Source of the DNA: Rhodospirillaceae bacterium
GTDB taxonomy: Bacteria; Pseudomonadota; Alphaproteobacteria; SMXQ01
Direction of reading: 5' to 3'
Length of the DNA: 48,322 bases
Assembly: GCA_947474495.1 (NCBI GenBank)
Contig: CANJIM010000015.1
Coordinates: 1-48,322 of the forward strand
Shown here in pieces: positions 19,366-35,834 of the stretch. A program made the position numbers and the translations under genes. The notes beneath the pieces are model-generated. The model had not been told where the DNA came from and searched no databases. It worked only from the letters and a program-made list of their open reading frames with translations. The stretch's first letter is position 1, and the number at the start of each line of letters is the position of its first letter.

Positions 19366-21684
19366 TTAGGCCTGGCTGAGGTAGCCTTTGATGCGGTCCG
19401 GCGACAGCGGTCCGCGGCGGACGCGGACCCCAGTGGCGTCGAACACGGCATTGGCGATGGCCGCCGCGAGCGGCCGCATCGAGGCTTCACCCGCCCCTGT
19501 CGGCTTCTCGTTCGGCATATTGATCAGCACGACGTCGATGGTCTCCGGCGCCTGCATGGTCTCCAGAATCGGATAGGTCATCCAGTCGACGCTCGTCACC
19601 TTGTCGCGGTCGAACATGACCTCTTCGAAAATCGCCCGGCTCGAGCCCTGCACGATGTTGCCTTCGATGGTCATCCGCAGATTTTCCGGATTGATGATGA
19701 TGCCGGCGTCATGGGCGACGGTGAACTTGCGCGGCCAGATCGCCCCGGTCGAACGGTCGACCTCGACCTCGGCGACGATGGCGACCACCGTACCGCCGCG
19801 CCGCGCGTATGCGACGCCACGTCCCGCGACGGTGCCTGTTCCGCCCGGCTTGCCGTTCGGCCGCGAACGCGATTTCCAGCCCGACTTTTCCGCCACCGCT
19901 TTCATCACCGCGATGTCGCGCGGATTTTTCAGATACTTGAGGCGAAATTCGATCGGGTCGACGTTCGCCGCCAAAGCGACCTCGTCCATGAACTGCTCGC
20001 TGGCGAACTGCAGTTGCGGCCCAAGCGGGTCGCGCAAATGCGAGCTGCGCAGCGGATTGCCGTTGCGGAAGAATTGCGGGATGGTTTCCCAGCCCATCGA
20101 CTTGTTGGCGAAACCGTAAGATTCCTCCGGCACGTTGAAGGCCATGGCGGCCTTAGAAACGCTGCCGCCGAGCTGGCTCGGCAGATTGTCCGACGGATCA
20201 CTCTCGTTCGAATTCACATCGAGGCGCGAGAAGCCTTTGCTGTTGAACCAGTAGGCGATGACGTTGCCTTGCGCATCAAGGCCCGCTTTGGCCTGGTGGA
20301 TGGACGCAGGTCCTTTCGGATCCCAGGCGTGGCCCTCGTCGCGCATGCCCTGCATACGCACCGGCTTGCCGATCATCTTGGCGACCATGGCGGCACCCGT
20401 CGCGGCATCGCCCGCGTCGTTGCGGCCGTAAGAGCCGGGCCCCGGCACCCAAATGCCGTGCACGGCGTCCTGCTCCATGCCGAGGATCTTGGCGACGCCG
20501 TCGCGCACATAATGCGGCTTCTGCGAACCGGTCCAGACAGTCGCTGTCTTCCCGCCCTCTTCGATCTGCACCACGGCGCAAGCCGGGCCCATGCTGGCAT
20601 GGGACTGGAACGGCCATTCATATTCCGCCTCGATGACGCGCGCCGCGCCCTTCAGGGCATCGGGCACGTTGCCATTTCCCTCTTCGACCTTCTTGGCGGC
20701 CGAGGTCGCCTTGCGGATGTAGTCGTAGAGACCGTTCTGATCGGGGAACGGCGGCGTCGGCTTCGACCATGTGACGGCAAGCTGCTCGCGCGCCTTGATC
20801 GCGTCCCATTCCTTGTCGGCGACGACAGCGACGAAATCCTTTTGCCGCACGACACGCACGCCCTTGAGGTTCTTGATCGACGATTCGTCGATCTTCACCA
20901 CGGACGCGCCCGCCGTCGGCGGCATCACCATGCGGGCATGGACCATGCCCGGCACGCGCACGTCGGTGACGAAGTCGGTGGTGCCATAGACCTTGCCGGG
21001 AATATCGAAGCGCTTGTAGGGCTTGCCGACGACGCGATAGTCAGCGACCGGCTTCACCTTGGCCTTACCGGTGACGACCATGCCGTTGCCGACCTGACCG
21101 TTCCACTCGACCTTCACGTCGAAGTAATTGCCGCCGATCATCTCGACGTAAGACACTTTCTTCGACGAATCGCCGACGACGGAAACAATGCCGTCGGTGA
21201 CAGTCAGCTTGTCAGCCGGCGCGCCGAGGATCTTCGACGCATGTTCGACCAGCACGCGGCGCGCTTCGGCGGCGGCATTGCGCAGCGGAATGGCGCCGTT
21301 CTGCACGCCGGTTGAGCCCGAGGCGCCGCCCTGATTCACGGTGAAATAAGTGTCGCCCATGATGACTTCGACGTTCTCGAGCTTGACGTCGAGTTCTTCG
21401 GCGACGACCTGGGCGATGGCGACATCGACGCCCTGCCCCATGTCCATCTTACCGAAAAAGGCCGTGACCTTGCCGTCGGCGGCGATCTTCAGCCAGGTGT
21501 CGAGTTGCGTCGGCTCGAGCGCCGGCTTGGCGGCGATGCCGAGGCGCGCGGCTTGCGCAGCGGCCTTCTTCGAGAGCACGAAGGTCGGCACGGCGGCCGA
21601 GAGCACGAAAGCCCCGGTGCCTTGCAGCACGGCGCGGCGCGAGACGGAGAAATTCTTTTTTGCGGGCTTGTTGATGGCGTTCAT
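19366..21684 (-). CDS. iorB: Molybdopterin-binding aldehyde/isoquinoline oxidoreductase, large subunit (IorB-like)
   Basis: A 772-residue xanthine-dehydrogenase-family molybdenum subunit of the IorB branch. It hydroxylates an N-heterocycle or oxidises an aldehyde; the real substrate is unknown. The start is ATG 21684, with GAGGGG upstream; the longer frame lies inside iorA. The Tat signal SRRAVLQGTGAFVLSAA has Arg16-Arg17, so the enzyme is exported folded, probably together with its small subunit. The first molybdenum-domain motif is KMDMGQGVDVAIAQVVAEEL. The active-site glutamate is Glu733 in TGAGEASMRP. The repeated pattern of the first domain is normal for IorB and aldehyde-type enzymes. 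The iorA gene lies directly upstream and ends inside the 12-base gap. No FAD subunit or cytochrome c gene is adjacent. Confidence 0.88.
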   Translation of the reverse strand: MNAINKPAKKNFSVSRRAVLQGTGAFVLSAAVPTFVLSKKAAAQAARLGIAAKPALEPTQLDTWLKIAADGKVTAFFGKMDMGQGVDVAIAQVVAEELDVKLENVEVIMGDTYFTVNQGGASGSTGVQNGAIPLRNAAAEARRVLVEHASKILGAPADKLTVTDGIVSVVGDSSKKVSYVEMIGGNYFDVKVEWNGQVGNGMVVTGKAKVKPVADYRVVGKPYKRFDIPGKVYGTTDFVTDVRVPGMVHARMVMPPTAGASVVKIDESSIKNLKGVRVVRQKDFVAVVADKEWDAIKAREQLAVTWSKPTPPFPDQNGLYDYIRKATSAAKKVEEGNGNVPDALKGAARVIEAEYEWPFQSHASMGPACAVVQIEEGGKTATVWTGSQKPHYVRDGVAKILGMEQDAVHGIWVPGPGSYGRNDAGDAATGAAMVAKMIGKPVRMQGMRDEGHAWDPKGPASIHQAKAGLDAQGNVIAYWFNSKGFSRLDVNSNESDPSDNLPSQLGGSVSKAAMAFNVPEESYGFANKSMGWETIPQFFRNGNPLRSSHLRDPLGPQLQFASEQFMDEVALAANVDPIEFRLKYLKNPRDIAVMKAVAEKSGWKSRSRPNGKPGGTGTVAGRGVAYARRGGTVVAIVAEVEVDRSTGAIWPRKFTVAHDAGIIINPENLRMTIEGNIVQGSSRAIFEEVMFDRDKVTSVDWMTYPILETMQAPETIDVVLINMPNEKPTGAGEASMRPLAAAIANAVFDATGVRVRRGPLSPDRIKGYLSQA

Positions 21685-21695
21685 GATGTTTCCCC

Positions 21696-22166
21696 TCAAC
21701 CCATCATCGTGCCGGCGCGCTTCACAGCGCGGATGATTCCCATATGGGTGCCGCAGCGGCATTTGAGTCCGGCGAGGCCTTCACGGATTTGCGCGTCTGT
21801 CATTTTGGGGTTCTGCTTCAAGAGCGCCGCCGAGGTCATGACCCAGCCGTTGATGCAATAGCCGCATTGCGCGACCTGCTCTTCTTCGAAGGCCTTCTGG
21901 ACCGGATGGGGCTTCTCGGCTGTGCCGAGGCCTTCGAGGGTAACGACCTTGTCGGTCGCCGAAATGGCCGAGACCGGCGTGGCGCAGGAGCGCGTCGCTT
22001 CGCCGTTCACATGCACCGTGCAGGCCCCGCATTGCGCCAGGCCGCAGCCGAACTTGGGATTGCGCAGACCGATTTCGTCGCGCAGAGCGTAGAGCAAGGG
22101 CATGTCGGGATCGACCGTCATGCTGTGGGTCTTGCCGTTGACATTCAGGGTGATTCGTTCGGTCAT
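21696..22166 (-). CDS. iorA: (2Fe-2S)-binding small subunit of molybdenum hydroxylase (IorA-like)
   Basis: A 156-residue two-cluster iron-sulfur protein that passes electrons from the molybdenum centre of IorB. The plant-type cluster uses Cys41, Cys46, Cys49 and Cys61 (GCGLAQCGACT). The second cluster uses Cys101, Cys104, Cys136 and Cys138 (QCGYC, KCRCG). The start is ATG 22166 with AGGAAGGA six bases upstream; a TTG two codons earlier is less likely. The protein has no signal peptide of its own, so it would be carried out with the Tat signal of IorB. A dyad operator candidate lies about 190 bases upstream. Confidence 0.92.
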   Translation of the reverse strand: MTERITLNVNGKTHSMTVDPDMPLLYALRDEIGLRNPKFGCGLAQCGACTVHVNGEATRSCATPVSAISATDKVVTLEGLGTAEKPHPVQKAFEEEQVAQCGYCINGWVMTSAALLKQNPKMTDAQIREGLAGLKCRCGTHMGIIRAVKRAGTMMG

Positions 22167-22355
22167 GGTCAATCCTTCCTCTCTCGAAGGTTACGACGTC
22201 GGGATTTGAGCTCTCTCCAGGCCGCCTTGTTATTCATTCTAGGTGGGGCGGCTGCGCGAAGTCTCCTGCCGGAACCCGCTGGCGTCAATCTATGCTTTGA
22301 GATGCGAAGGACGATTATTCGCCGTTGCGCCGGCCATTTTTCCAATCAGCACAGT

Positions 22356-22379
22356 CGCTATATACGCAAAAATATAGCG
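22356..22379. promoter_or_regulatory. Inverted repeat upstream of iorA (operator candidate)
   Basis: CGCTATAT (22356-22363) and ATATAGCG (22372-22379) are perfect 8-bp arms with an 8-base spacer. It lies between the end of the molybdopterin-binding fusion gene and iorA. The TATAT-N8-ATATA core is the same as in the dyad upstream of xdhC. Confidence 0.5.
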
Positions 22380-22394
22380 CTGTTCGCAATAAGA

Positions 22395-24065
22395 TCAGCC
22401 GGCGTTAGCGCCGACGTTCTTCTGCAGGAAATCGGCCAACGCCGCCGGCTCGTCGATGTCGAGCAGCACGCAGTCATCGGCCATCGCCACTTCGGCGACC
22501 GCCTCCGGATAAGCGCCGATCAAATGGCGTGCACCGACGTCGCCCTGCACCTTGCCCATCTCCTCGAAGAACGGCCGGCCCCACAGCACCGGATTGCCGC
22601 GCTTGCCGCCGGATGTCGGCACGACGATGGCACGGCCCTCCAACGGATTGAAGGCGGCGATCAATTGATCGAGCACGCTGGCGGGCACGCTCGGCATGTC
22701 GCCAAGCTGCACCAACGCACCGTCGATCTCGGTGGGCAAAATAGGAAGACCTGCTTTGAGGGAGGTACTGATGCCTTCGGCATAATGGGGATTCTCGACG
22801 ATGGTCACGTCGAGCCCAGCGAGCGCGGCGCGCACCGCCTCCTGCTGATGGCCGACGACCACCACGACCGGCCGCGCTTGAGAGGCGAGCGCGGCCTTGA
22901 CGACGCGGACAATCATCGGCTCGCCGCCGACATCGGCGAGCAACTTGGTCGGACCACCGGTTTTGTCGATGAAGCGGCTGGAGCGGCCGGCGGCCAAGAT
23001 CAGCGCGGCGATCTTCGGCATTTTGGCGGCGCCTTTTCGCCGTTCGGCTTCTGCGCGCGGCAAAGGCCGCGACGGAATCTCCATCAGCAGGCCACCAACG
23101 CCCATGCCCTGAATATCGCGCGGGCCGACCGGGATCCCGGCGAGCAAACGCTGCATCACCCAATCGACGCCGTTGAGCTTGGGCGAGCGCGCGCAGCCCG
23201 GCAGGCCGAGGATCGGCGCTCCATCGGCGCCCTTAGCGAGCAACAGAAGATTGCCGGGATCGACCGGCATGCCGAAATGCTCGACGGTGCCGCCGGCCAG
23301 TTCGATACCGACTGGAATCACGTCGCGCCGGTCGGCGATTGCCGAAGCACCGACGATCAACAGCAGACCGCAGCCCTCGGCCTTCAGTGCCTTGATGGCG
23401 GCGGCGATCTCATCCGCCGCGTGGCCGCAGCGTTTTTCGGCTGTCAGATCGCTGCCGAGCACGGCCAGACGTTCGGCGGTGATGCGCGCCGTCTTGTCGA
23501 GCACGCTCGCCTTCATGTCGGGCAGACGCGTCTGGATCAAGCCCACCTTCTCATGACGCAAGGGGGCGACGCGGATCAGCGGGCCGCTTGTTGCGGCGAT
23601 CTCAGCGCAAGCCTTTATCGCCGCCTCTGGCGCGGCATAAGGAATGATCTTGACCGTGGCGACCATTTGCTTGGCCTCGACCAAGGCATAAGGCGCCAGG
23701 GTGGCGATGGTGATGGCGGGATCGATGCGGTTGATGGCGTCGATGCGTGCGGCGTCGAGCAACACGAGCCCGGCCGTCGCGGCATGGAGATTGACCCGAC
23801 CGGTAAACGCGGGACCTCGGTCTAGGCCCTCACCCGTCGCCGCCCCCATTATGGCTTGGGCAACGATATCCGCCGCCGCGTCCTCGCCGACGTCGCCCGG
23901 CTCAAGACGGACCACGGTGACCTTCGTCGCGCCCGCCGCTTGAAGCGCGGCCACGTCCTCATCGGTCAGCAGATGGCCCTTGGCAAAGCTGCGCGCGCCG
24001 GCACGTTCGCGATGGACCAGCCGCGCGCCCGCCGCCGTGGCGATGGCGACCTCGCCGTAGATCAC
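22395..24065 (-). CDS. Molybdopterin-binding / MobA-like nucleotidyltransferase fusion protein
   Basis: A 556-residue two-part protein. The N-terminal ~330 residues resemble the molybdopterin-binding (MoeA/MogA-like) fold ([22 protein letters not shown], and [14 protein letters not shown]). From Met349 a MobA/MocA-like NTP transferase domain begins with LAAGRSSRF (357-365), then [12 protein letters not shown] and [15 protein letters not shown]. The second half probably makes the cytosine or another dinucleotide form of molybdopterin used by hydroxylases of the xanthine-dehydrogenase family. It overlaps xdhC by 4 bases (ATGA) and lies upstream of iorAB, a setting that supports cofactor tailoring for that enzyme. 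The role is inferred from domain content and position. Confidence 0.87.
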
Positions 24066-25114
24066 GCCGCCGCGTCCTTTTTGTCCGACGATTTGTCGCC
24101 GTGCAGCACCTGCGTCATCTGCGCCAGCACCGAGATGGCGATCTCGGCCGGCGAGACGGCGCCGATGGCGAGGCCGACGGGACCGTGAATGCGCGCCGTC
24201 TCGACGTCGGTGAAGCCCTGCTCTTTCAAACGTTCGAGGCGCGAGGCGTGCGTCTTGCGGCTACCGAGAGCGCCGATGAAGAAGGCGTCCGAGCGCAGCG
24301 CCGAAGCCAGCGCCGGATCGTCGAGCTTCGGATCATGCGTGAGCGTGATGACGGCGCTCCGCGCATCCGGCTTGAAGGCGGCCAGCGCCTCGTCGGGCCA
24401 ATCGTTCGACAGGGTCACGCCCGGAAAACGGAATTCGCTGCCGAAGGCGCTGCGCGGATCGATCACCGTCACCTCGTAGCCGGCCATGGCGGCCATCGGC
24501 ACCAGCTGCTGGGCAATATGCACGGCGCCGACGATGGCAAGACGGCGCGGCGGCGCGATGACATTGACGAAGACGCGCTTGCCGCCGGCCTCGACCGGCG
24601 CGCTCTTCTCGCGCGATAGCGCCCGCTCGGCCTCCATGCGCAAAGCCGGATCGAGCGTCAGCTCGCTTTTGACGGGAGCAGACGGCAACAAGGTTTGCGC
24701 GCCGTTGTCGAGATCGGTGGCGATGGCGAAGGGCGTCTTGGCTTCGGCGGCTTTAAGGGTGGCCTCGAGCATCGGCTCATGGCCGTTCACCGCCGTCACC
24801 AGGATCTCGACCTTGCCGCCGCAGGCGAGGCCGACGTCCCACGCCTGTTCGTCGCTGATGCCAAATTTGAGCAGACGGGACTTGCCGTCCTTGATGGCCT
24901 CTTGCGATTCGGCGATGACCGCGCCTTCGACACAACCGCCCGACACCGAGCCCTGAAAATTGCCGGCATCGTCCGCCACCAGCTGGCTGCCGACCGGGCG
25001 CGGCGACGAGCCCCAGGTGGCGACCACCGTCGCCAAAGCGACGCCCTTACCCGCCTTTCGCCAATCGGCGGCGGTGCGCAGGATGTCCAGGGTGCTCTCT
25101 TTGGCGTCGGTCAT
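24062..25114 (-). CDS. xdhC: XdhC/CoxI family molybdenum-enzyme maturation protein
   Basis: A 350-residue XdhC/CoxF-type protein. Such proteins bind molybdenum cofactor, promote its sulfuration and hand it to apo-hydroxylases. The N-terminal XdhC_CoxI domain has [18 protein letters not shown] and [13 protein letters not shown] (55-67). A Rossmann-like domain begins near residue 191 ([12 protein letters not shown]). The start is ATG 25114 with GGAG five bases upstream. It is the first gene of a probable operon with the molybdopterin-binding fusion. An inverted repeat lies just upstream. The specific client, IorAB or the CoxLSM set, is not shown. Confidence 0.88.
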
Positions 25115-25124
25115 GGCGGGCTCC

Positions 25125-25150
25125 GGGTTATATCTTAATAAATATAACCC
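25125..25150. promoter_or_regulatory. Inverted repeat upstream of xdhC (operator candidate)
   Basis: GGGTTATAT (25125-25133) and ATATAACCC (25142-25150) are perfect 9-bp arms separated by 8 bases, centred about 23 bases upstream of the xdhC start. It overlaps an AT-rich patch that could be the promoter -10 region. The core TATAT-N8-ATATA recurs upstream of iorA. Confidence 0.55.
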
Positions 25151-31553: not shown

Positions 31554-33890
31554 ATGGGACAATACGGAATTGGTCAACCGATTCGCCGCAAGGAAGATGC
31601 GCGCTTGCTCACTGGCAACGGCCGCTACACCGACGACGTCAATCTTGATGGCCAGGTCTACGTCTACTTCCTGCGCTCGCCCTACGCCCACGCCAAGATC
31701 AACGCGATCGACACCACCGACGCCCTCGCCGCGCCCGGCGTCATCGCCATCTACACCTCGGCCGACATCATCGCCGACGGCGTGAAGCCGATCCCATGCG
31801 AGGCCAACGCCAAGTCGCTCAAGGGCGTGCCGCTGTTCAAGCCGCCGCGCCATGCGCTGGCCTTCGAGCGCGTGCGCTACGCCGGTGAACCTGTCGCCAT
31901 GATCATCGCCGAGAGTGTCAACGCCGGCAAAGACGCCTCCGAACTGATCCAGATCGATTATGAGGAACTGCCCGCCATCGCCGATACCTCGCGCCTCGCC
32001 GACGCGGACGCGCCCCTCGTGTGGGACACGCTCGGCAGCAACGTCGGCCTGCATTGGGAAACCCAGGAATCGGCGGTCAGCGAAGCCATCTTCAAGAGCG
32101 CGCACAAGACCGTCGAACTGAAGCTGCTGAACAACCGCCTGGTCGGCAATCCGATGGAGCCGCGCTGCGCGGTGTCCGAGCATGACCCGAAAACGGGCCG
32201 CACCACGCTCTATGCGCCGAGCCAGGGCGGCCGCCGCGTCATTAATGCGATCGCCAAAGAAATACTGAATGTGCCGCCACAGTCGCTACGGATGATCTCG
32301 CTCGACACCGGCGGCGGCTTCGGCATCCGCAGCAAAACCTATCCCGAGCTGGTTCTGATGGTGTGGGCGGCGCGCAAGCAGACCCGCCCGCTGAAGTGGC
32401 GGGCCGATCGCGGTGAAACCTTCGTCTCCGACGTTCACGGCCGCGATCAATCGACCAAGGCCTCCGCCGCGTTCGACAAGGACGGCAAGCTGCTCGCCGT
32501 GCGCAACGAAACCATCGTCAATGTCGGCGCCTATCTCTCGGAGAACGGCGCCATTCTCGCCATGATGGGCGGCGGCAAGATCATGGGCACGGCTTATGAC
32601 GTGCCGGTGCTCTACTTCTCGGTGAAGAGCTGCTTCTCCAACACGGTGCCGACCGATACCTATCGCGGCGCCGGCCGTCCTGAAGTGAACTTCATCATGG
32701 AACGCCTGATGGAGCTCGGCGCCCAGGCTTTCGGGATCAGCTCGATCGAGATGCGCAAGCGCAACTTCATCCGCGAGTTTCCCTACAAGACGCAGATGGG
32801 CTGTCTGATCGACAGCGGCGACTTCCCCGGCACGCTCGACATGACTCTCGACAAGGGCGACTACGCCGGCTTCGAGAAGCGCAAGGCCGAATCGAAAGCG
32901 CGCGGCAAGCTGCGCGGCATCGGCATCGGCTATTACGTCGAAGGCGCCGGCGGCCGCCCCGTCGAGGAAATGCGCGTCCGCTTCGAGAAGGACGGCAAGG
33001 TCAAGATTTTCGCCGGTACCTTCTCGCACGGCCAGGGCCACGACACGGTCTATTCGCAATTGCTCAACGAATATCTCGGCGTCGATGCATCGAAGGTCGA
33101 ATTGATCCAAGGCGATTCCGACACCTCGCCGAAGGGCGCCGTCGGCACCTTCGGATCGCGCAGCTCGATGATGGGCGGCGTCGCGATCAAACGCGCGTCG
33201 GAAGCCATCGTCGAGAAGGGCAAGAAAATCGCCGGCCATCTCATGCAGACCGAGCCGTCCAAGGTGACATTCAAAGAAGGCGTGTTCCACGGCGGCACGA
33301 GCAGCGTTACGCTCGAAGTGGTCGCGCGCGCCGCGCAGGATCCGAGCAAGCTCCCCGAAGGCATGGAAGGCCCGCTCGACGAGAGCTACTATTACGAACG
33401 CCAAGGCGAGAGCCAGAACTTCCCCAACGGCTGCCATCTGATCGAGGCCGAAGTCGACCCCGACACCGGCACCGTCGAGATCGTCAAGTTCACGGCGATC
33501 GACGATTGCGGCACCGTACTCAATCCCCTGATCGTCGACGGTCAGGTGCTCGGCGGCATCGCCCAAGGCATCGGCCAGGCACTCGTCGAAAACACCATCT
33601 TCGACAACGAGACCGGTCAGCTGCTCACCGCGTCCTTCATGGACTACGGTATGCCGCGCGCCAGCGATTTCCCGATGATCGGCATTCACTTCAACAGCGT
33701 GCCGTCGCCGACCAACGATCTCGGCGTCAAGGGCGCTGGCGAAGCGGGCGCCTGCGGCGCGCCGCCCGCCCTGGTCCACGCGGCACTCGATGCGCTGAAA
33801 GAATACGGCATCCGCCATATCGACATGCCGCTCACCCCCGAAAAGGTGTGGCGCGCCATTCAGGCCGCCAAGTCCGGCAAGGCTGCTTAA
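31554..33890 (+). CDS. Molybdopterin-binding large subunit of a CoxL-like (form II) hydroxylase
   Basis: A 778-residue xanthine-dehydrogenase-family catalytic subunit. It has GIGQPIRRKEDARLLTGNGRYTDD at the start, FSHGQGHDTVYSQLLNEYLG for the molybdenum domain, and Glu730 in GVKGAGEAGACGAP as the active-site base. The loop that separates real CO dehydrogenases from relatives reads TYRGAGR (369-375). This is the form II pattern, and the selenium/sulfur-copper-binding cysteine of the form I motif is absent. It therefore probably hydroxylates an organic ring or aldehyde, not CO. CoxG-, CoxS- and CoxM-like genes follow. The TAXI-TRAP genes lie upstream on the same strand. The ribosome site is weak. 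Confidence 0.9.
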   Translation: MGQYGIGQPIRRKEDARLLTGNGRYTDDVNLDGQVYVYFLRSPYAHAKINAIDTTDALAAPGVIAIYTSADIIADGVKPIPCEANAKSLKGVPLFKPPRHALAFERVRYAGEPVAMIIAESVNAGKDASELIQIDYEELPAIADTSRLADADAPLVWDTLGSNVGLHWETQESAVSEAIFKSAHKTVELKLLNNRLVGNPMEPRCAVSEHDPKTGRTTLYAPSQGGRRVINAIAKEILNVPPQSLRMISLDTGGGFGIRSKTYPELVLMVWAARKQTRPLKWRADRGETFVSDVHGRDQSTKASAAFDKDGKLLAVRNETIVNVGAYLSENGAILAMMGGGKIMGTAYDVPVLYFSVKSCFSNTVPTDTYRGAGRPEVNFIMERLMELGAQAFGISSIEMRKRNFIREFPYKTQMGCLIDSGDFPGTLDMTLDKGDYAGFEKRKAESKARGKLRGIGIGYYVEGAGGRPVEEMRVRFEKDGKVKIFAGTFSHGQGHDTVYSQLLNEYLGVDASKVELIQGDSDTSPKGAVGTFGSRSSMMGGVAIKRASEAIVEKGKKIAGHLMQTEPSKVTFKEGVFHGGTSSVTLEVVARAAQDPSKLPEGMEGPLDESYYYERQGESQNFPNGCHLIEAEVDPDTGTVEIVKFTAIDDCGTVLNPLIVDGQVLGGIAQGIGQALVENTIFDNETGQLLTASFMDYGMPRASDFPMIGIHFNSVPSPTNDLGVKGAGEAGACGAPPALVHAALDALKEYGIRHIDMPLTPEKVWRAIQAAKSGKAA

Positions 33891-33924
33891 TCAGATAGAC
33901 GACTTTAAGTGAAGGAGACGCGTT

Positions 33925-34386
33925 ATGGATATGAGCGGCGAACAGCGCATTCCCGCCCCGCAACAGATGGTGTGGGACTCGCTTTACGACCCTGAAGTGC
34001 TGAAGCTTTGCATTCCAGGCTGCGATTCGGTCGAGAAGACCTCCGAAACGGAATTCACCGCCAAGGTCGTCGTCGCCGTTGGTCCGGTGAAGGCCAAGTT
34101 CACCGGCGACGTCTCGCTGCTCGATATCGACGCGCCCAATAGCTGCACGATCAGCGGCAAGGGCAATGGCGGCATCGCCGGTTTCGGCAAGGGCAACGCC
34201 AAAGTCGAGCTTACGGCCGACGGCAATGACACGATTTTGAAATACACCGCCCAGGCTTCGGTCGGCGGAAAGCTCGCCCAGATCGGCGCGCGCTTGGTCG
34301 ACTCGACCGCCAAGAAGCTGGCCGACGAGTTCTTCAAGCGTTTCGTCGCGCACATGACTGAAAAGGCCGCTTCCGGCCGCGCCTAA
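33925..34386 (+). CDS. coxG: CoxG family protein (SRPBCC fold)
   Basis: A 153-residue protein of the carbon-monoxide-dehydrogenase subunit G family. It starts [20 protein letters not shown] with the typical [11 protein letters not shown] and [19 protein letters not shown] blocks. CoxG belongs to the START/Bet v 1-like fold and is thought to recruit or anchor the hydroxylase to the membrane. The ribosome site GAAGGAGA precedes ATG 33925. The gene lies 34 bases after the large subunit gene and upstream of coxS. A hydrophobic-ligand-binding function is possible. Confidence 0.88.
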
Positions 34387-34472
34387 GCTCATCTTGCCCC
34401 TGTCGCAGGGGCGGCTATCATCTGCTATGTAAGAAAACAAGCCGGCCAGGCTGCCCAACAGGAGAGAGACCC

Positions 34473-34970
34473 GTGGCCAAGATTTCCATGACGGTGAACG
34501 GCAAGACCGTGAGCGGCGACGTCGAGCCGCGCACCCTGCTCGTCCAGTTTATCCGCGAGCATCTCGGGATGACCGGCACCCATGTCGGCTGCGATACCAG
34601 CCAATGCGGCGCCTGCAACGTCCATTACAACGGCGAAGCGGTGAAAAGCTGCACCATCCTGGCGGTCCAGGCCGACGGCAGCGACGTCGTCACCATCGAG
34701 GGCTTGGCCAAGCCGGACGGCACGCTGCATCCGATGCAGGCCGCCTTCCGCGAATATCACGGCCTGCAGTGCGGTTACTGCACCCCCGGCATGGTCATGG
34801 TGGCGGTCGATATCGCCCGCCGACTGCCCTGCGCCGACGAGGCCACGGTGCGCGAGGAGCTCTATGGCAACATCTGCCGTTGCACCGGCTATCAAGGCAT
34901 CGTCGAGGCGGTCATGGCCGGTTCGGAAGCCATGCAGACCGGCGTCCTGCCCCTCAAAGACCATCACTAA
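34473..34970 (+). CDS. coxS: (2Fe-2S)-binding small subunit, CoxS-like
   Basis: A 165-residue two-cluster iron-sulfur subunit of the CoxL-like hydroxylase. The first cluster uses Cys40, Cys45, Cys48 and Cys60 ([10 protein letters not shown]). The second uses Cys100, Cys103, Cys135 and Cys137 (QCGYC, ICRC). It starts at a GTG, 34473, with AGGAGA upstream. It carries electrons from the molybdenum site to the FAD of the CoxM-like subunit. The CoxM-like gene starts 11 bases later. Confidence 0.93.
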
Positions 34971-34981
34971 GGGAGCGACCG

Positions 34982-35779
34982 ATGTATAACTTCGAATATC
35001 GCCGCGCCCAGTCGGTCGCCGAAGCCGCCAAGCTGATCAAGGAAGCCGACGACGGCAAGATCCTGGCCGGCGGCATGACCCTGATACCGACGCTCAAGCA
35101 GCGCCTGGCGCAGCCGAGCGACTTGATCGACATCGGCAAGATCGCCGAGCTCAAGGGCATCAGCGTCTCGGGCAAGACCCTGACCATCAAGGCGATGACC
35201 CGCCATTTCGATGTCCACAGTTCGCCCGAAGTGAAGAAGGCCATTCCCGCCCTTGCCGTCCTCGCCGGCGGCATTGGCGATCCGTCCGTGCGCCATCGCG
35301 GCACCATTGGCGGCTCGACCGCCAATGCCGACCCTGCCGCCGACTATCCGGCCGGTATCGTGGGCCTCGGCGCCACCATCGAAACCAACAAGCGCAAGAT
35401 CGCCGCCGATGACTTCTTCACCGGGTTGTTCGAAACCGCTCTGGAGCCCGGCGAATTGATTATCGCCGTGCATTTCCCGATCCCCGACAAAGCGGGCTAT
35501 CTGAAGTTCGCCCACCTCGCCTCGGGCTATGCCACCTGCGGCGTCATGGTTTCCAAGACCGGCAATCAGGTTCGCGTCGGCGTCACCGGCGCAGGCCCCA
35601 ATGCCTTCCGCGTGCCGGAAATGGAAGCCGCCCTCGCCAAGACCTTCACGCCCGACGCCATCGCCAATATCAAATACCCGGCGGACGAGTTGCTGTCGGA
35701 TATGCATGCGAGCGCCGAATACCGCGCCCACCTGGTCACCGTGATCGCCAAGCGCGCCGTCGCCGCCGCGCTCGCCTAA
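34982..35779 (+). CDS. coxM: FAD-binding medium subunit, CoxM-like
   Basis: A 265-residue FAD protein of the CO dehydrogenase/xanthine dehydrogenase medium-subunit family. The start is ATG 34982; the open frame upstream overlaps coxS and is rejected. FAD-binding motifs are AGGMTLIP (29-36) and TIGGSTANADPAADYP (108-123). The subunit passes electrons from the iron-sulfur clusters to a quinone or other acceptor. It is the last gene of the operon, followed by a strong terminator hairpin. IorAB elsewhere in the window lacks such a subunit. Confidence 0.92.
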   Translation: MYNFEYRRAQSVAEAAKLIKEADDGKILAGGMTLIPTLKQRLAQPSDLIDIGKIAELKGISVSGKTLTIKAMTRHFDVHSSPEVKKAIPALAVLAGGIGDPSVRHRGTIGGSTANADPAADYPAGIVGLGATIETNKRKIAADDFFTGLFETALEPGELIIAVHFPIPDKAGYLKFAHLASGYATCGVMVSKTGNQVRVGVTGAGPNAFRVPEMEAALAKTFTPDAIANIKYPADELLSDMHASAEYRAHLVTVIAKRAVAAALA

Positions 35780-35797: not shown

Positions 35798-35834
35798 TTA
35801 GGGCCTGATTTTCAATATGAAGATCAGGCCCTAA
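35798..35834. terminator. Strong bidirectional terminator
   Basis: A long stem starts with TTAGGGCCTGAT (35798-35809) paired with ATCAGGCCCTAA (35823-35834). Five more inner pairs, one of them G-T, give 17 pairs and a 3-base loop. TATTTT follows on the plus strand. It separates the end of coxM from the convergent exported-protein gene. Confidence 0.85.

Follow-up and report, generated by a model that had tools for sequence, protein, structure and literature searches.

Two perfect dyads in a 48,322-bp stretch of DNA from a Rhodospirillaceae bacterium (the window) raise the question of whether the maturation genes and the enzyme genes of a molybdenum hydroxylase answer to one regulator and, if so, to which. 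The preliminary description had reported two dyads sharing a TATAT-N8-ATATA core and an 8-bp spacer, and direct reading of the sequence found them exactly as claimed. The iorA-side dyad, CGCTATAT-ACGCAAAA-ATATAGCG (positions 22356-22379, without strand), pairs at 8 of 8 arm positions across an 8-bp spacer, and the xdhC-side dyad, GGGTTATAT-CTTAATAA-ATATAACCC (positions 25125-25150, without strand; 24-bp core at 25126-25149), pairs at 9 of 9 across a spacer of the same length.

All the genes concerned are encoded on the minus strand. The xdhC gene (24062..25114) encodes a molybdenum-hydroxylase maturation factor of the XdhC/CoxI family (Pfam XdhC_C, 9.5e-41; XdhC_CoxI, 2e-24; NCBIfam NF045664, 7.5e-60, below the family cut-off). 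Its end overlaps by 4 bp with a mocA-like gene (22395..24065), the product of which has a C-terminal NTP-transferase domain similar to molybdenum cofactor cytidylyltransferase (Pfam NTP_transf_3, 5.4e-36; TIGR03310 MocA, 5.4e-43, below the family cut-off). The enzyme is encoded by iorA (21696..22166), for the [2Fe-2S] subunit (Pfam Fer2_2, 3.8e-25; Fer2, 2.5e-08), and iorB (19366..21762), for the molybdopterin-binding large subunit (Pfam MoCoBD_2, 2.4e-41; MoCoBD_1, 6.6e-28). Judging from the sequence, iorA probably starts at the ATG at 22166, the listed ORF beginning at a TTG at 22172. The xdhC-side dyad is situated 11 bp upstream of the xdhC ATG (25114) and is directly followed by a GGAG ribosome-binding-like sequence, and the iorA-side dyad is found beyond the mocA stop (22395), with about 190 bp separating it from the ATG of iorA. 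The two dyads do not frame one cluster, as had been proposed; each heads a minus-strand unit of its own, xdhC-mocA for maturation and iorA for the enzyme. At the end of mocA, a terminator-like hairpin (22398..22415, minus strand) parts the maturation unit from the iorA dyad, with 3 such hairpins found against 2.4 expected, which makes it weak evidence.

A pattern search of the window for TATAT-N8-ATATA returned these two dyads only, compared with 0.01 cores expected per window from shuffled sequences, and none of 100 shuffles contained two. Beyond the two, the window holds no perfect dyad with arms of at least 8 bp and a spacer of 8 bp. Such a dyad is common per se (8-bp arms, mean of 0.95 per window under a Markov model); with TATAT in an arm, none appeared in 20 Markov-simulated windows. 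Across the 2.99-Mb genome, the bare core occurred at 6 sites versus 4 for the reversed control pattern, which is no clear enrichment, and the core with its outer bases, allowing at most 1 mismatch, was enriched (6 sites versus 1 control site).

The geometry spotted by eye belongs to an operator that is already established, which removes the need to invoke a new regulator. The published consensus of the ModE box, or Mo-box, is ATCGNTATATA-N6-TATATANCGAT (PMC545781; PMC2700814). When sites were scored over the 14 positions of CGNTATAT-N8-ATATANCG, with symmetrical arms and N8 spacing, the iorA dyad matched at 14/14 and the xdhC dyad at 12/14, its outer C/G being replaced by G/C. The CG outer pair typical of mod-gene boxes is thus present in the iorA dyad, a canonical Mo-box, and absent from the xdhC dyad (GG/CC). 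Across the class, the GG/CC-ended variant was found at 7 sites versus 2 control sites, and 0 of the 5 genomes carrying it outside the genus encode ModE; the GG/CC ends do not look like a general ModE variant. Assignment of the xdhC dyad to ModE is based instead on its core, its spacing, its position and the boxes that occupy the equivalent place elsewhere (see below). We consider it likely, from these sequence features, that both dyads are ModE operators, the iorA dyad being the predicted operator and the xdhC dyad a probable one with variant outer bases; for the iorA site alone, the assignment can be made with greater confidence than for the two sites jointly. A second molybdenum-hydroxylase cluster in the window, with CoxL-, CoxG- and CoxM-like genes (31554-35779), contains no box of at least 12/14, its best match (11/14, at 34980) being inside the CoxM-like ORF. 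No perfect dyad in the window is longer than the one at 35798-35834 (arms of 12 bp around a 13-bp spacer), which closely follows the CoxM-like gene, at the place of a terminator.

The preliminary description left the regulator unknown, which no longer holds, as the motif corresponds to the ModE box known from the literature and the genome carries a ModE gene beside modABC and a box at modA. The ModE gene, on a contig other than that of the dyads, is adjacent to and convergent with modC of the modABC cluster, and the box CGTTGTAT-CCTTGTGA-ATATAACG is located 20 bp upstream of modA. The protein (146 aa) has the ModE DNA-binding domain and matches TIGR00637 at 7.9e-25, its 86.8 bits falling short of the cut-off of 98.5 bits. 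Its closest solved structure is 2ijl (4.3e-29), which we take to be the ModE protein of Agrobacterium tumefaciens, followed by E. coli ModE (1b9m/1o7l, 2.3e-11). Full-length ModE has molybdate-binding C-terminal TOBE domains, whereas no TOBE domain was found in the 146-aa protein, which is DNA-binding only; the one TOBE domain above cut-off in the genome has the strand and place of modC. An alignment-free AlphaFold model of this ModE was of poor quality (pLDDT 57) and was left out of the reasoning.

Short ModE proteins have been met before. That of A. tumefaciens, reportedly the subject of work by Hoffmann et al. in 2016, likewise consists of the DNA-binding domain only; it is said to bind two Mo-boxes at modA and to follow the status of the molybdenum cofactor (Moco), its known target reportedly being modABC. 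In the literature searched, no report was found that this protein controls xdhC or iorA genes. Desulfovibrio also has a single-domain ModE reduced, as here, to the DNA-binding domain, with unclear signal input and a different predicted box, CGGTCACG-N14-CGTGACCG (PMC545781). The operators of ModE in E. coli and Geobacter sulfurreducens, and of MopA/MopB in Rhodobacter capsulatus, follow the same consensus as the dyads described here, and modA is preceded by a box in these organisms as in this genome. In R. capsulatus, MopA and MopB bound to Mo-boxes repress the molybdate transport genes (PMC6925177). The present sites differ from these known operators in their predicted targets, a molybdenum-hydroxylase maturation operon and iorAB, and in the outer bases of the xdhC box, GG/CC in place of CG/CG.

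Conservation was examined in the genus and beyond. Within the genus, for which the comparison comprises one genome (G001), all 26 bases of the xdhC dyad are identical. The iorA dyad of this relative, CGCTGTAT-TTTTTAAA-ATACAGCG, located 194 bp upstream of iorA, has one base changed in each arm with perfect symmetry kept, as well as a changed spacer; the contig starts exactly at this dyad, so that the comparison covers the dyad and its iorA side. A TTGACG-like element between the box and iorA is common to the two genomes. Two boxes are present upstream of modA in G001, and one of them sits within a longer inverted repeat, AGCAAGCGGCCAAGCG ... CGCTTGGCCGCTTGCT (L136:1128-1179). The proposal that maturation and enzyme genes share one regulator is supported insofar as both dyads are kept in this relative and belong to one motif class.

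Outside the genus, four genomes carry a box upstream of xdhC or of a coxI-type gene, with CG at one end or at both. The xdhC promoters of L020 and L034 have CGTGATAT-N8-ATATAACG and that of L033 has CGATATAC-N8-ATATAACG, all three being intergenic and 23-35 bp upstream of the xdhC start, and G008 has CGTTATGT-N8-AAATATCG upstream of the coxI-type gene heading a split xdhC locus. Weaker xdhC-promoter sites were detected in L045 and L046. Elsewhere in the family, iorB loci showed no box, even in two members with ModE. As a test of the earlier idea, the orthologous promoters thus gave a divided answer, with both dyads kept within the genus and the xdhC box recurring further away, but the iorA dyad seen within the genus only. 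ModE presence did not discriminate between xdhC loci, as it was found for 6/6 loci with a box and 24/30 without one (p 0.56). Examples of cultivable relatives with both ModE and an xdhC box are Reyranella sp. CPCC 100927 and Vineibacter terrae. In the family members G003 and G007, in which no ModE was detected, a box-like CGTTATCT-N8-GGATAAGG occurs just before the coxI-type gene of a split xdhC locus (L205:1111-1134), with a resembling sequence in L206; these remnants are possibly decayed boxes. The iorB ortholog of G004 (L152, G004:C16:49146-51533) was reported with one in-frame TAA stop.

The link between box and regulator was apparent at the level of the class. The 105 kb surveyed around 32 modE genes contained 21 boxes scoring 12/14 or better, compared with none from a Markov model. 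In 385 alphaproteobacterial genomes, there were 32 perfect sites versus 3 control sites, and ModE was encoded by 27/28 genomes with a perfect box versus 70/357 without (p about 7e-17, relatedness being ignored). The expectation that such dyads would exceed chance across the genome was borne out for the full box, which tracks ModE across the class, but not for the bare core, which is near chance. Among the 27 annotated perfect sites, 18 adjoin modA or modB and 1 adjoins moaA. Five perfect boxes in ModE genomes (L213, L214, L217, L220 and L221, each at 1501-1524) precede, or appear to precede, genes for NAD-type aldehyde dehydrogenases, which are not molybdoenzymes; four of these calls were made by Pfam Aldedh beside the site and that of L213 by the N-terminal sequence after the site only. 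One guess is that these boxes spare molybdenum by switching aldehyde oxidation from a Mo-dependent to a Mo-free route and back.

Several candidate sites were rejected. Fourteen strong matches located about 430 bp ahead of xdhC, most of them in Reyranella-type loci, were set aside as coding sequence: in L022, the one inspected, the match is inside the upstream CDS (RYRDVDIA codons), and the others were rejected because they have position and sequence in common with it. Of the two-mismatch matches in the own genome, at least 6 (L102, L104 and L108-L111) encode the motif R[YH][MI]xx[YH]I[PA]G and were likewise discarded, the single gene tested being TctC. A third box-like dyad of the own genome, CGTTATAT-CCGCCGCG-ATATAACC (L013:2407-2430 = G000:C33:7406-7429), between divergent cytochrome c and second iorA-like genes, was not retained as an additional part of the regulon, being absent from the orthologous promoter of G001.

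Other readings of the dyads have to be weighed against control by ModE. Coincidence, in which the AT-rich core common to two unrelated dyads would be accidental, could draw on the near-chance frequency of the bare core in the genome and on the fact that perfect 8-bp arms with an 8-bp spacer arise about once per window at random; however, the same core occurs twice, at both promoters of one locus, the arm changes in G001 are paired, and the motif co-occurs with ModE, so that this reading is disfavoured and very improbable. Hardly more probable is a role of the dyads as hairpins of the leader RNA, controlling translation or termination, rather than as protein-binding DNA. Both do fold stably (-18.5 and -15.4 kcal/mol, with z-scores of -3.1 and -2.6), and the xdhC hairpin would stand immediately 5' of the GGAG sequence, but folding does not discriminate here since any perfect dyad folds in this way, and several modA and xdhC boxes have imperfect arms and yet keep the ModE consensus. 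A covariance-model search of the leader against Rfam, with E values up to 1, gave no relevant match and no Moco or other riboswitch, leaving the hairpins with no fitting family, and the association of the motif with the ModE gene also speaks for a DNA site.

Somewhat more weight is due to the explanation, unlikely as we judge it, that ModE acts at the iorA dyad alone, the one with canonical CG ends, and a different dimeric regulator, whose AT-rich core is similar, at xdhC. This would suit the lower score of the xdhC dyad and the lack of a link between the GG/CC variant and ModE elsewhere in the class. Against it, the xdhC dyad shares the core and spacer of the iorA dyad and the placement of the modA box, and in other ModE-encoding genomes xdhC is preceded by CG-ended boxes. 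On the evidence of these sequences, we prefer ModE at both sites. Points that count against it are the GG/CC ends of the xdhC dyad, the restriction of the iorA box to the genus, the failure of ModE presence to sort xdhC loci by box and the perfect boxes at aldehyde dehydrogenase genes. In this reading, xdhC-mocA and iorAB would probably be new additions to the targets of a regulator long known to respond to molybdenum, with co-regulation of maturation and enzyme genes as a plausible outcome. The finding is best read as a modest extension of the known ModE regulon, not as a new kind of system.

By analogy with the ModE family, a ModE dimer would bind each box with one subunit per arm. At xdhC, it would most likely repress xdhC-mocA in the manner of ModE repression of modABC, because the box lies close to the start codon (11 bp), as does that of modA (20 bp). 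At iorA, binding could possibly activate transcription or act on an additional promoter, given that the box is about 190 bp upstream and beyond the conserved TTGACG-like element. Since this ModE is without a molybdate-binding domain, it probably does not sense molybdate directly and would respond instead to cofactor status or to a partner protein. We tentatively put forward, while regarding it as more doubtful than the operator assignment, that a ModE free of the molybdate domain jointly controls modABC, xdhC-mocA and iorAB by sensing the state of finished Moco. The own domains of short ModE do not explain how it senses, and the promoters described here are concrete places at which to ask which of molybdate, Moco or a partner it reads. 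An operon that finishes the cofactor specifically for hydroxylases, together with the enzyme genes next to it, falls within the probable regulon of a short ModE and, if the joint control holds true, the supply of Moco, its finishing and the demand for it would form one feedback loop under ModE.
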